Below the pieces are notes generated by a model. It made no database searches and was not told the origin of the DNA. It was given only the letters and a program-made list of their open reading frames with translations. From Paenibacillus sp. 32352 (GTDB lineage Bacteria; Bacillota; Bacilli; Paenibacillales; NBRC-103111): DNA of 64,000 nt. This document shows, in pieces, positions 6,666 through 63,875 of the stretch. How positions within the stretch are numbered: the first letter of the stretch is position 1; every line of letters begins with the position of its first letter. The translations under genes were made by a program, and so were the position numbers. The stretch is taken from positions 186,001 through 250,000 of the forward strand of contig NZ_MZNT01000009.1 in the NCBI RefSeq assembly GCF_002042965.1. The letters run 5' to 3'.

Positions 6666-6700
6666 AGAACGGTGTGAAAAAAGCGAATTCCTCCGCCACG

Positions 6701-6747
6701 GATAGTTGATTTGCCCTTCCTTCATGGAATCGAGGCTGGTCTATAAT
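6701..6747 (+). promoter_or_regulatory. Second copy of the activator-type promoter element
   Basis: GATAGTTGATTTG followed by CCCTTCC (6701-6720) and TATAAT (6742-6747) repeat the element at 1082-1128 with identical spacing, although the 20 bases between box and -10 differ. Similarity extends upstream to an AAAAAAGCGA block (6677 onward). It starts just after the lacZ stop. The next plus-strand gene is the alpha-mannosidase, 400 bases away, but a terminator comes first at 6781. Confidence 0.55.
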
Positions 6748-6872: not shown

Positions 6873-7112
6873 CCCCACTTGGTGGGGGAACTTGTTGGGT
6901 AACCCTATTCTGCGCGAAGTATGCTAAATATGGAGGAGGGGTATGCCTCGGAGGAGTTTACGTCCGCCTTTGAAATCCGTGAAAATACCGCTAAATCTAA
7001 TCCAATTCACGGGTTTCAATAGTGGCCGGAGAGGTGTACCCCACCGGAGTATATTGGCAATAGTTCAGGCTCTATAGGTTTACCAACAGACTCACCCCAC
7101 TTTGTGTGGGTA
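6873..7112 (+). repeat. Structured intergenic element, copy A
   Basis: Core 6921-7061. Outer helix: GGGGTATGCC (6938-6947) with GGTGTACCCC (7033-7042). Inner helix: TTTGAAATCCGTGAA (6969-6983) with TTCACGGGTTTCAA (7006-7019). Conserved single-stranded tracts are CGGAGGAG, CCGCCTTTG and AGTGGCCGGA. Flanks add AACCCTAT (6901-6908) opposite ATAGGTTT (7074-7081), with short CCCCAC/GTGGGG hairpins at both ends (6873-6887 and 7093-7110). Related copies lie at 37065, 61544 (reversed) and 61824. It fills the lacZ to mannosidase gap and contains no open frame. Confidence 0.8.
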
Positions 7113-37030: not shown

Positions 37031-37064
37031 CCGGCATACTGTTGAAAAAAATGTTTTGTGGGAA

Positions 37065-37222
37065 CTATGCTGCCTACGAAGGTGGGTAAGCCCGGAGGAG
37101 GTTACTTCGACCTTTGAAACCTGTGAAGTACCGCTGCATTAGATTTACTTTTCACGGATTTCAATAGTGGCTGGAGGGGCATACCCACCGGAGTATATTG
37201 GCAAAGTTCGAGCTCTATAGGT
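37065..37222 (+). repeat. Structured intergenic element, copy B
   Basis: Outer helix GGTGGGTA (37081-37088) with TACCCACC (37182-37189). Inner helix TTTGAAACCTGTGAA (37113-37127) with TTCACGGATTTCAA (37151-37164). Conserved tracts are CGGAGGAG, ACCTTTG, AATAGTGGCTGGAG and ACCGGAGTATATTGGCAA. The right flank GAGCTCTATAGGTTT (37209-37223) matches copy A. It fills the convergent gap between the GH42 gene and the aromatic-acid-exporter-like gene. Confidence 0.8.
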
Positions 37223-37259
37223 TTTTCCTCAGATTCACCGGCATCAAACCATAGCCTGA

Positions 37260-60106: not shown

Positions 60107-61444
60107 ATGAAAAAAGCGGCGGCGGCAGCACTCACAGCGGTTATGGCAACGGCTCTTCTGGCCGGCTGTGGTTCAACCGGTACGGACGGCAAAGCGGCTG
60201 GAGACAGCGGCAGCAAAGATAAAGCGCAGGCCAAAGTAAAGCTTTCCTTATGGCATAACTACACGGGCGACGATCTTCGTGCCAAAAACATGAGAGCGAT
60301 TATGGAGCAATTCAAGAAAGACCACCCGAACGTGGACCTGGATATTCAGGGGATTCCGCCCGATGGCTATAGAGCCCGTTTGAAAACGGTTGCTGCGGCA
60401 AACGAAATGCCGGATTTGTTCGTCATGTGGCCTGGGGTTATGACCAAAGAGTTCGTAGGCGGCGATTTGCTCCAGCCGATCAATGCGCTGCTGGACAGCA
60501 AGCCGGAGTGGAAGAATGGCTTCCTGCCGAATTCCTTCGATGATTTCACTATCGATGGCAAAACGTACAGCGCTCCGATGGGATTGTCCCCAACGTCAAT
60601 TCTTTACTATAACAAATCGATCTTCGATAAATATGGCGTGAAGCCGCCAAAAACATGGGATGACATGATGAGTCTCGTGGAAACGTTCAAAAAGAACAAT
60701 ATTACGCCTATCGCGCTGGGGAATAAAGCGGCTTGGCTGGCCCAGTCGAGTATTTTAAGCTCGCTGGCCGATCGTGTCACCGGCTCCGAATGGTTCTTGA
60801 ACGCCGCCAACCAAAAAGGCGCGAAGTTCACCGACCCGGAATTCATTCAAGCATTGACCTACCTGCAGCAGCTCGGCAAAGCGGGAGCGTTCCAGGAGGG
60901 CTTCAACAGCATCGACAATACGCAAATGGAGCAGTATTTCGCGCAGGGCAAGGCGGCAATGATGATCGACGGCGGCTGGGCGTTGACAAATCTTGCGGCG
61001 AGCGCATCCAAAGAAACATTGGATAACATGGCCGTCACCGTACTTCCGTCCGTACCAGGCGGCAAAGGCGATCCGAACTCGCTGTCCGGCGTTGTCGGCA
61101 CCGGTCTCGGCATGAGCAAGAAAACAACCGGCGCAGCCAAAGATGCGGCTTATGAATTGATCTATGCGTTATCCGGCCCTGCCGCTCAAAAGTCCACTCT
61201 GGAGAGCAATCAGCTGGTCAGCTACAAGGTAGAGCTGGATAAGACGAAAGTATCTTCCTTATTCGCGCAAGTCTATGAAATGCTCGGCAAAGTGAAAAGA
61301 ACGCCGGTATACGACGGCGTGCTGAGCTCTGCGGCAGCGGATGTAGTGAACAATGGCTTGCAGGAGCTGCTGATGGGCGGCAAGCCGGAGGATATCGCCA
61401 AGAAGATTCAGGAAGCGCAGGCGAAATCGGTGGGAGTCAAATAA
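60107..61444 (+). CDS. ABC transporter sugar-binding lipoprotein (CUT1)
   Basis: 445 residues. The signal peptide has lipobox LLAG-C (Cys21). The mature part reads VKLSLWHNYTGDDLRAKNMRAIMEQFKKDHPNVDLDIQGIPPDGYRARLKTVAAANEMPDLFVMWPG, typical of family 1 solute-binding proteins, and later MEQYFAQGKAAMMIDGGWALT. AAGGAGGG precedes the ATG. It is the first gene after YesM/YesN. The permease genes start 663 bases later, separated by a hairpin and two structured repeats, so the binding protein can be made in excess. The ligand is unknown. Confidence 0.93.
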   Translation: MKKAAAAALTAVMATALLAGCGSTGTDGKAAGDSGSKDKAQAKVKLSLWHNYTGDDLRAKNMRAIMEQFKKDHPNVDLDIQGIPPDGYRARLKTVAAANEMPDLFVMWPGVMTKEFVGGDLLQPINALLDSKPEWKNGFLPNSFDDFTIDGKTYSAPMGLSPTSILYYNKSIFDKYGVKPPKTWDDMMSLVETFKKNNITPIALGNKAAWLAQSSILSSLADRVTGSEWFLNAANQKGAKFTDPEFIQALTYLQQLGKAGAFQEGFNSIDNTQMEQYFAQGKAAMMIDGGWALTNLAASASKETLDNMAVTVLPSVPGGKGDPNSLSGVVGTGLGMSKKTTGAAKDAAYELIYALSGPAAQKSTLESNQLVSYKVELDKTKVSSLFAQVYEMLGKVKRTPVYDGVLSSAAADVVNNGLQELLMGGKPEDIAKKIQEAQAKSVGVK

Positions 61445-61462
61445 TGTAGCAGGACAGCAGAT

Positions 61463-61491
61463 GGCTCCAGTCTTGGCGAAAGGCTGGGGCC
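61463..61491 (+). terminator. Stem-loop after the binding-protein gene
   Basis: GGCTCCAG and CTGGGGCC pair around a 13-base loop, followed by only a weak T stretch (ATTGGTTT). It is more likely a partial stop or message stabiliser than a full terminator. Confidence 0.5.
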
Positions 61492-61543
61492 ATTGGTTTC
61501 TCTGGAGCGAATCAGCTGGCGAGAAGCCGGAGGTACTCGAAAT

Positions 61544-61690
61544 ATGGCTAATGTATCTCCGGTGAGATATGCCCCTCCAGCCGCTGTTGTTACCAGGAAA
61601 ATTCGAATGTATTTTATAAGTTTTTTTCCTGGAAACAAAGGCGGACGCTATCGCTCTTCCGAGGCATATCTCACCTCCGTTTTAGCCAAT
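61544..61690 (-). repeat. Structured intergenic element, copy D (reversed)
   Basis: Reads as the element only on the minus strand. The outer helix is a perfect 13-bp GGTGAGATATGCC (61561-61573) with GGCATATCTCACC (61663-61675). The inner helix is TTGTTACCAGGAAAA (61587-61601) with TTTTCCTGGAAACAA (61624-61638). In element orientation it has AGAGCGATAGCGTCCGCCTTTG, split by the helix, and AACAGCGGCTGGAGGGG. The flanks GGCTAA/TTAGCC extend the stem. It faces copy C head to head. Confidence 0.8.
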
Positions 61691-61823
61691 TTCGCGGGGA
61701 AGCAGGCTTCTCTATTTGCCGAGTATCGCTCTCGAGAAACTGTATTAATGCTAAAGTTATCAGTTTCGCCAGATGAAACTGGATATTTTTTTAAAATAGT
61801 ACTCAAAAAAATGTGAAAGGTAA

Positions 61824-62076
61824 TAGGTGAGATACCTCACCGATAGGCTGTAGAGGAACCCTATCGTACTGAAAAATAGCTAAAGGTAGGTGGGGTACCC
61901 CCTGCAGGAGCGATAGCGACCGCCTTTGTTCTCGGAAAATACCCGCTGCAGAGCAAATATAATCAATATTTTCTGAGAACAACAGTGGCCGGAAGGGGAT
62001 ACCCCACTGGGAGTACCAAAGCAATTTTTCAGATTTTCAGGTTTCTCGACAAACACTGGGTGAGATACCTCACCGA
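61824..62076 (+). repeat. Structured intergenic element, copy C
   Basis: Core 61871-62024. Outer helix GTGGGGTACCCC (61890-61901) with GGGGATACCCCAC (61995-62007). Inner helix TTTGTTCTCGGAAAATA (61925-61941) with TATTTTCTGAGAACAA (61967-61982). Conserved tracts are CAGGAGCGATAGCG, ACCGCCTTTG and AACAGTGGCCGGAAGGGG. The same 16-base palindrome GGTGAGATACCTCACC stands on both sides (61826-61841 and 62059-62074). The element ends about 30 bases before the permease start codon. Confidence 0.82.
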
Positions 62077-62107
62077 AACACCTGTAGATTTTTTTAGGAG
62101 GGAAGTC

Positions 62108-62983
62108 ATGACATCAGCGGCACGCATACGGGGGTTCATAACAGTTGCGCTTCTTCCGGCCTTTGTGCTATACGCTTTTTTTGTTATCATACCGGTGTTT
62201 TGGTCCGCTTATTACGGTTTTTTTGACTGGAAGGGGATCGGAGCTGCGAAGTTTATCGGCTTCGACAATTATGCGGAGGTCATCAAGGATCCGATTTTTT
62301 GGAAGTCGTTCAAAAACAATATGCTGATCGTGGCGGCATCCGTATTCGGCCAGGTGCCCATTGCCTTGGTGCTTGCCATTGTATTATTGAAAAACACGCT
62401 GTTTCAACGTATGATCCGCGCCTCCATTTTTATGCCGATGGTGCTTTCATCCGTAGTCGTAGGGATTATTTGGGGCTATATCTATCATCCGCAAATTGGG
62501 ATTTTGAACTTTTTGCTGGAAAACCTGGGTCTTGCCTCGTGGAAAAAAGCATGGCTCTCCGATCCGAAAATTTCGATGTATGCCATCATGGTGCCGATTA
62601 TTTGGAATTATATCGGTCCGTACATGATTATGTTCATCGCTGCGCTGCAAAACATTTCCCCGGAAATTGACGATGCTTCGCAGATCGACGGTGTCGGTCC
62701 GGTGCGCAAGCTGTTCGTCATTACACTGCCGATGATTTGGGATACGATCAAGGTTGCGGTCGTTCTATGTATTTCCGGAAGCTTGAAGGCGTTCGACTTG
62801 ATCTACGTGATGACCGGCGGCGGTCCTGCTCATTCCACGGAGCTGCTCGCTTCTTATATGTACAATAATACGTTCAACGTGTTCCGTTATGGCTACGGCA
62901 GCGCCGTGTCGACGGCGATCATTATTCTGAGCTTGGCCTTGATCGTAGGAAGCCAATATTTGATGAAGCGGGAAACGAGATAA
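62108..62983 (+). CDS. ABC sugar transporter permease (MalF-like)
   Basis: 291 residues from an ATG with GGAGGGA upstream; the frame that runs back to 61985 crosses the repeat and is not coding. Six membrane segments, beginning FITVALLPAFVLYAFFVIIPVFWSAYYGFFDW, and the coupling motif DDASQIDGVGPVRKLFVITLPMI are present. It pairs with the permease encoded next and the binding protein upstream. No ATPase gene lies in the operon as seen. Confidence 0.94.
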   Translation: MTSAARIRGFITVALLPAFVLYAFFVIIPVFWSAYYGFFDWKGIGAAKFIGFDNYAEVIKDPIFWKSFKNNMLIVAASVFGQVPIALVLAIVLLKNTLFQRMIRASIFMPMVLSSVVVGIIWGYIYHPQIGILNFLLENLGLASWKKAWLSDPKISMYAIMVPIIWNYIGPYMIMFIAALQNISPEIDDASQIDGVGPVRKLFVITLPMIWDTIKVAVVLCISGSLKAFDLIYVMTGGGPAHSTELLASYMYNNTFNVFRYGYGSAVSTAIIILSLALIVGSQYLMKRETR

Positions 62984-63002
62984 ACGAATGGGAGGGAATA
63001 CG

Positions 63003-63875
63003 ATGGAATCCGGATATGCAGTGAAGACGACCGCCTTCCCTCAAGGGCAAACCGGGCAAAAGGTAAAGAGGGGCTCCATCAACATCATGCTCACGCTTTA
63101 CGCTTTAGTTACGCTGTACCCGTTATTTTGGTTATTCATGAGTGCGTTCAAAAACAATGAGGAGTTTTTCTCGGCTCCTTTTTCATTACCGGCGCAGTGG
63201 CATTGGGATAATTTCAGCCGCGCTTGGGAAGTATCCGGTATGGGCATTTCGCTTATTAACTCTACCATTGTTACTATTGCTTCCTTGGTGCTTACTCTGG
63301 TGCTTGGAGCGCTTGCAGCTTATGTATTGGCAAGATTCGAGTTCAAGCTGAAGCCTCTGATGATGGGACTTTTCCTGCTTGGCATGCTGATTCCCATTCA
63401 CAGCACGCTGGTGCCGCTATTTATTATTATGAAAAAAATCGGGCTGCTGGACAGCTACGGGGCGTTGATTTTGCCCTACACCGCTTTTGAGCTGCCGCTT
63501 GCTATATTCGTAACCGCCGCTTATTTAACCTCTGTTCCTAAAGAAATTGAGGAAGCTGCGCTAATGGACGGAACCGGGTACTGGGGCATCTTTTTCCGTA
63601 TCATGCTGCCTCTTAGTATTCCTGCGTTGTCTACCGTCGCTATTCTCGCTTTCTTACGATTCTGGAACGATTTTGCGTTTGCACTTGTGTTTATCAGCAA
63701 GCCCGCTCTGAAAACGCTGCCGCTCAGTCTCTCGGTGTTCGCTACCGGCTATTCCACGGATTACAAGCTGACGATGGCCGCATTATCCATTGCCGTGCTG
63801 CCGACGATCATCGTGTTCCTGCTATTTCAGGAGCAGATCATGAAAGGAATGACGGCAGGGGCCGTAAAGGGGTAA
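63003..63875 (+). CDS. ABC sugar transporter permease (MalG-like)
   Basis: 290 residues from an ATG with GGGAGGG 6 bases upstream. Six membrane segments, starting INIMLTLYALVTLYPLFWLFMSAFK, and the coupling motif EEAALMDGTGYWGIFFRIMLPLSIPALST are present; the end QEQIMKGMTAGAVKG is typical of this group. It follows the first permease by 19 bases. Together they form the channel of the third importer. Confidence 0.94.
   Translation: MESGYAVKTTAFPQGQTGQKVKRGSINIMLTLYALVTLYPLFWLFMSAFKNNEEFFSAPFSLPAQWHWDNFSRAWEVSGMGISLINSTIVTIASLVLTLVLGALAAYVLARFEFKLKPLMMGLFLLGMLIPIHSTLVPLFIIMKKIGLLDSYGALILPYTAFELPLAIFVTAAYLTSVPKEIEEAALMDGTGYWGIFFRIMLPLSIPALSTVAILAFLRFWNDFAFALVFISKPALKTLPLSLSVFATGYSTDYKLTMAALSIAVLPTIIVFLLFQEQIMKGMTAGAVKG

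Follow-up and report, generated by a model that had tools for sequence, protein, structure and literature searches.

Probable IS1182-related miniature elements with whole-hairpin target duplication in the binding-protein/permease gap of a Paenibacillus sugar transport operon

Within the IS1182 family, IS1272 and TnSha1 of staphylococci are known to target inverted-repeat hairpins without sequence specificity and, as far as the published accounts of these two elements go, the hairpin is deleted or replaced and no target duplication is produced (PMC4923244, PMC5678879). Five of the seven target hairpins sequenced in one of these studies were confirmed as terminators by RNA-seq (PMC4923244), and the other study, from 2017, includes a hypothetical 'pathway b' in which the whole stem-loop would be duplicated (PMC5678879). 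Beyond the latter hypothesis we found no earlier account, in the open-access literature, of an IS1182-family element duplicating a whole hairpin at its target. Two other groups of described systems are relevant to the locus considered here. Bacterial MITEs are the subject of a review from which the terms 'Paenibacillus' and 'IS1182' are absent (PMC10969869); one of them, Chunjie, is described as operon-inserted by a paper in its reference list. In enteric bacteria, a 3' structure located between malE and malF protects and stabilises the malE mRNA, and in four further ABC transport operons the binding subunit is likewise the stabilised one (PMC5927463).

The window analysed here (the whole stretch of 64,000 nucleotides from Paenibacillus sp. 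32352) contains a sugar ABC transport operon with a gap of 663 bases between the end of the binding-protein gene (61444) and the ATG of the first permease gene (62108). The original prediction held that this gap is filled by a stem-loop followed by two oppositely oriented copies of a repeated element (D, then C), and the annotation of the gap bears this out (Table 1). Directly preceding the binding-protein gene are genes for a sensor kinase and an AraC-type regulator; for the binding-protein gene itself, no NCBIfam equivalog above cut-off was found. The two copies have GCGATAGCGNCCGCCTTTGTT in identical form (0 occurrences expected by chance in the window), and the whole gap is predicted to fold far more stably than its shuffled versions (z = -9.4, 20 shuffles). 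The longest of its open frames of at least 60 aa is 107 aa, apart from frames running into the permease gene. A separate promoter for the permeases had been named as evidence that would count against the prediction; a promoter scan confined to the gap found no sigma-70-like promoter, and co-transcription is not contradicted. The 18-bp direct repeat flanking copy C is itself a hairpin, a feature absent from the original prediction. Elsewhere in the window, a 52-nt direct repeat (1051-1102 and 6670-6721, 83% identical, 5.6 kb apart) does not belong to the MITE element. Taking together the analyses described below, we are confident that D and C are non-autonomous, IS1182-related MITEs which duplicate hairpins at terminators and which are late passengers in this operon, the probably older first stem-loop being the likelier contributor to the mRNA balance.

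Table 1. Predicted features separating the binding-protein gene from the first permease gene, and the genes on either side (window coordinates)
Feature	Position	Strand	Evidence
Sugar ABC transporter substrate-binding protein gene (SBP_bac_1)	60107..61444	+	Pfam PF01547, 141.8 bits
Stem-loop 3' of the binding-protein stop codon	61460..61494	+	terminator-like scan match, 15 pairs; -26.2 kcal/mol
Element copy D, probable older MITE copy	61513..61723 (ends approximate)	-	nhmmer 117.8 bits, match 61517-61714
Predicted terminator-like hairpin plus T-tract, lying between D and C	61760..61793	+	scan match 61760-61782, then ATATTTTTTT
Putative E0 left remnant (third, core-deleted element copy)	61804..61838	+	weak profile match, model 26-60, E 0.0043 (C left out)
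Copy C left target duplication, hairpin GGTGAGATACCTCACCGA	61826..61843	.	perfect 18-bp direct repeat
Element copy C, probable MITE with terminal inverted repeats, inside the putative E0 remnant	61844..62058	+	nhmmer 197.4 bits, match 61845-62054
Copy C right target duplication	62059..62076	.	perfect 18-bp direct repeat
Putative E0 right remnant	62064..62095	+	profile match, model 157-188, E 0.18, not significant alone
ABC permease gene 1	62108..62983	+	PF00528, 60.8 bits
ABC permease gene 2	62988..63875	+	PF00528, 76.2 bits

The element is an inverted-repeat unit of about 206-215 bp with terminal inverted repeats at the copy ends (e.g. TTGTCGAGAAACCT) and, judging by this size and by its short frames, it carries no internal transposase. 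Its core pattern has 52 matches genome-wide versus 1 for the reversed pattern, and at least 40 matches in the window genome were obtained with copy C as the query (40 of 88 candidates scored). Of the 30 copies that a profile built from 36 copies detected in contigs C70 and C11 (1.0 Mb together), 23 are nearly complete in length. Two core types are distinguished among the copies; the younger, of 206 bp, is represented in the window assembly by at least five copies identical over their full length (40 of 126 candidates scored). The window itself holds two copies beyond D and C, at 6892-7092 and 37039-37233, which may be the copies A and B of the original prediction; the hairpin repeat flanking the first of them is imperfect (CCCCACTTGGTGGGGG / CCCCACTTTGTGTGGG). 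The family appears to be spread in the genus, as matches (several of them weak or partial) were obtained in 9 of 13 Paenibacillus genomes including that of the window, and all 40 stretches recovered from public genomes with a 30-base pattern belong to Paenibacillus (P. tyrfis, P. elgii, P. ehimensis and P. oleatilyticus among them). Searches for a phage or plasmid source of the element gave no match, and the whole gap was likewise unmatched in plasmids. Identity with an Rfam RNA was rejected, as no match to a known RNA was accepted and those within the gap were to miRNA models only (E 0.6-0.95). Aligned together, 33 copies give a single long hairpin in which 21 of the 38 pairs show compensatory changes, as is expected of a palindromic element.

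The genomic context of 26 copies scoring at least 80 bits in the 1.0-Mb sample was tandem in 11 cases, convergent in 6 and divergent in 2, with 6 more inside crude ORF calls and 1 at a contig edge; these are too few to be given weight against the background of 319 tandem, 117 divergent and 95 convergent gaps in the same sample. Adjoining pairs of copies, as in the operon gap, occur also on C70 (268241-268428 and 268439-268609, locus L120) and on C11 (3-206 and 227-314, locus L135), and this apparent clustering would fit an insertion hotspot. One copy (locus L075, 812-1046) carries a 37-bp palindromic insert with GCAAAGCC and GCTTCGGAAGC. Since palindromes resembling this insert (GCTTACGAAG / GTTTCGC) recur near two further loci (L030 and L036) and in the corresponding gap of a related genome (G008, see below), a second, REP-like repeat family seems to be present as well.

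The history of the gap was approached by comparing 11 gaps from 10 genomes, one of them with two operons. The comparison covered operons with an intact gap, setting aside G002, where the gap is cut by a contig end, and four loci with permeases only 38-45% identical, a level judged insufficient for regarding the operons as equivalent (L102, L103, L105 and L106, from G009, G012 and the second copies in G002 and G004). The element profile (E <= 0.1) gave no match in 8 of the 11 gaps, which come from seven more distant operon-bearing genomes, hence the operon does not need the elements. One of the eight is that of G008, in which the same operon (permease 93% identical) has an element-free gap of 171 bases. 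Copy D is common to the window, G007 and G010. In G007 it is accompanied by a nearly full third copy, E0, between duplicated GTTTCGC...GCGAAAC hairpins, and in G010 and the window by a core-deleted E0 with C in its remaining hairpin, the same C insertion being present in both. The remnants of E0 give weak profile scores (in the window, E 0.0043 and 0.18-0.49; in G010, 0.0065 and 0.036); the left one is collinear with the nearly full copy that G007 has at this position, and the right one, in its G010 form, is similar to the right end of that copy. The assignment of the hairpin hosting C to an older, core-deleted copy is supported, if less firmly than the duplication of that hairpin on both sides of C. 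As the locus of G010 is the closest to that of the window (87% identity over 7.5 kb), followed by G007 (84-87%) and G008 (78-81%), insertion of D and E0, then loss of the E0 core, then insertion of C is the parsimonious order of events. Relatedness does not follow this order everywhere, as one of four segments places G008 slightly closer to the window than G007 (85.6 vs 84.8%), and two other insertion sites put G007 slightly ahead of G010. An alternative in the original prediction, that the pair reflects insertion into an older repeat acting as a hotspot, finds support as far as C is concerned, since C would lie inside the hairpin of an older copy that is nearly complete in G007.

The original prediction had also proposed comparing the same operon with and without the repeats. 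In addition to the dispensability of the elements, this comparison revealed a predicted stem-loop between the two genes in all 11 gaps (-16 to -26 kcal/mol), starting about 9-82 nt past the stop codon. In the window it is a predicted stable hairpin right after the binding-protein gene (61460-61494), a feature of the malE-malF type. Among 218 other same-strand gaps of 60-250 bases, 43% reach -16 kcal/mol; as a group, the stem-loops of the 11 gaps are stronger (rank test p = 1.3e-4, with orthologues that are not independent). The first stem-loop is probably older than the elements. Because it is shared by all 11 gaps, eight of them free of elements, and because the enteric malE structure is protective, it would be a likelier candidate than the elements for keeping the binding-protein mRNA more abundant than the permease mRNA. 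The elements, as late passengers, would have brought the gap to 663 bases from an initial length of about 170, with the flanking genes kept open.

The elements, or the hairpins between them, might nevertheless act as a partial terminator that now lowers permease transcription. This possibility, which we consider unlikely but not negligible, is suggested by the T-tract hairpin predicted between D and C (61760-61782) and by the fact that the element family targets terminators. On the other hand, that hairpin is a prediction and belongs to the flanking rather than to the element sequence, and the corresponding hairpin in G007 has no T-tract, yet the operon is kept there nonetheless.

We assign a distinctly lower likelihood to the view that the elements have been retained between the two genes as REP/BIME-like structures protecting the binding-protein mRNA. 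The location between binding-protein and permease genes, the very strong predicted folding of the gap, the compensatory changes in the predicted pairs of the 33-copy alignment, as well as the precedent of 3' protection in malE-malF and of the stabilised binding subunit in four more operons (PMC5927463), all point in this direction. However, any palindromic DNA element would be expected to show covariation, which in this family largely tracks the two subfamilies; the eight element-free gaps all still have the stem-loop; and the elements display transposon ends, target duplications and terminator sites genome-wide. REPs are short bare palindromes tied to REP-associated tyrosine transposases, with no transposon ends or target duplications. 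An identity of the elements with REP/BIME was accordingly rejected. The malE-malF analogy of the original prediction therefore appears plausible for the stem-loop and is unsupported for the elements, whose length, inverted repeats, target duplications and IS1182 relative set them apart from REPs.

The reading of D and C as hairpin-duplicating MITEs draws on the flanks of the whole family, as most copies have a hairpin of their own at each flank, the same left and right. Target duplication was assessed in 59 of 60 full copies, one having been dropped for a missing flank. In 42 of the 59 the flanks contain a direct repeat with a score of at least 12, compared with 5 of 1,180 mismatched pairs (flanks drawn from different copies), and this holds for 15 of the 24 copies from C70 and C11, a subset chosen without similarity search. 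Such a repeat was absent in 17 copies including D, which has no recognisable target duplication (score 6). In 38 of the 59 copies the repeat, 12-42 bp in length, abuts the element and nearly coincides with a terminator hairpin. For these 38 (leaving out the 21 without an abutting repeat scoring at least 12), repeat length follows hairpin length (Spearman 0.76; 0.72 minus the two longest), and the edges of hairpin and repeat lie within 5 nt of each other in 37. A T-tract follows the right hairpin in 30 of them and an A-tract precedes the left hairpin in 20, with at least one of the two in 35; the T threshold is reached by 11% of random intergenic 9-mers. At each of two other insertion sites, three relatives have a single terminator at the same gene end (6/6), and the element profile gave no match in these 3.5-kb stretches. 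The duplicated hairpins of a pair differ at 33 of 165 loop positions (20%) versus 17 of 590 stem positions (3%), as would be expected if both stems remain under selection. One of the loop differences adjoins a copy of the young type, of which at least five copies are identical (locus L068).

A hairpin at each side of most intact copies could also be seen if the hairpins were the terminal hairpins of the element itself and not a duplicated target. We find this scarcely credible, given that their sequence varies between copies and matches within a copy (hence the near absence of scores of at least 12 among mismatched pairs) and that each of the six element-free sites shows a single terminator at the end of the corresponding gene.

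The affiliation of these target-duplicating MITEs with the IS1182 family comes from a parent-type IS reached via a DDE_Tnp_1_6 search of the genus. This 1,557-bp IS (locus L177 of G004, at 1379-2935 within the locus) has the inverted repeat CAGAGTGTCGAGAAACCC and ends of the form CAGA-(G/C)TGTCGAGAAA, and a 24-bp hairpin is duplicated at both its sides. The MITE end, CAGA-TTGTCGAGAAACC, is shared with the L177 ends, CAGA-GTGTCGAGAAACCC and CAGA-CTGTCGAGAAAG, the better of which is identical to it at 16 of 18 positions; no similarity between L177 and the MITE was found beyond the ends. A 1,546-bp relative of L177 in another genome (G027) gave 15 equal-scoring matches, 12 of which (L200 among them) were examined and one (L221) dropped because its left end was unread. 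All 11 copies with both ends readable have perfect hairpin-forming duplications of 13-45 bp, compared with a maximum of 12 over 110 mismatched pairs. Insertion of the IS1272 type, by replacement of the hairpin, is not what we observe, as abutting hairpin duplications occur in the 38 MITE copies and in all of these G027 copies. An exact 12-mer search for long direct repeats at 19 IS1182-family loci revealed hairpin duplication in 5 (including L177) and not in the other 14. ISfinder lists variable direct repeats for the IS1182 family.

For both IS types the best model of both ORFs is NF033551 (IS1182), with 274.2 and 198.3 bits in L177 and 260.7 and 211.0 bits in G027; the cut-off of 270 refers to one whole protein, and each ORF spans about half of the model. 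DUF772 and DDE_Tnp_1_6 domains are present in the scanned IS ORFs. The transposase is split over two overlapping frames, and the recurrence of this layout in L177 and G027 makes a programmed frameshift likely. What the window genome contains is a broken transposase relic of the IS1182 type, with half an element in its flank, and a short second transposase fragment (DDE_Tnp_1_6), and a DUF772 search of this genome gave no match; the active transposase for the MITEs is therefore inferred from relatives. Inspection of the ORF lists for the partial element matches in G007, as candidate parents, revealed no recognisable parent IS. Group IIC introns insert at terminators. We dismiss the elements' derivation from fragments of such introns, despite this common targeting, as the window contains no Rfam intron match at gathering score and the elements have terminal inverted repeats, target duplications and an IS1182-family relative.

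The terminal inverted repeats shared with an IS1182-family IS, the insertion at intrinsic-terminator hairpins, the near-complete duplication of the hairpin, whose length the duplication accordingly tracks, and the perfect duplication at C are all observed. As a mechanism, we propose that the transposase would recognise an extruded hairpin or cruciform and join the element at the 5' feet of both stems, so that gap repair would copy the entire hairpin to each side. Each duplicate would retain the T-tract on its own outer side, and the target terminator would thus survive as two outward-facing halves. With some reservation, we favor the view that this branch of IS1182 reads DNA hairpins by shape and duplicates the entire hairpin, so that a terminator acting in both directions becomes two working terminators, each acting in one. 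Since the target is a terminator that is split in this way and two hairpins result, a jump would both spare the host and add target sites, including sites in or beside earlier copies.

For the IS1182 family, the mechanism of structure-guided target choice is a standing question, the hairpin being lost in the published cases as far as these are described. The 30 copies in 1.0 Mb, together with a complete multi-copy IS with perfect duplications, provide a large natural data set for structure-guided targeting by a DDE transposase. If the proposed mechanism is true, the Paenibacillus elements would be the natural case of the whole-stem-loop-duplication pathway, drawn for IS1272 only as a possibility. 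A caution for the interpretation of hairpin-rich operon gaps also follows, namely that they can be transposon debris over an older functional hairpin; comparison of relatives separates the two.

Compared with the known systems, the locus resembles REP/BIME and malE-malF in having hairpins between binding-protein and permease genes, and differs from them in the transposon ends, target duplications and DDE-transposase relative of its elements. With bacterial MITEs such as Chunjie, Correia and RUP, the elements have in common that they are short and non-coding, have terminal inverted repeats and occur in many, intergenic copies, whereas duplication of a whole terminator as the target is not mentioned in the passages on those MITEs in the review (PMC10969869). 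Like IS1272 and TnSha1, they are linked to an IS1182-family transposase and have hairpin targets, terminators among them; unlike IS1272 and TnSha1, they are non-autonomous and duplicate the whole hairpin, in a manner resembling 'pathway b'.
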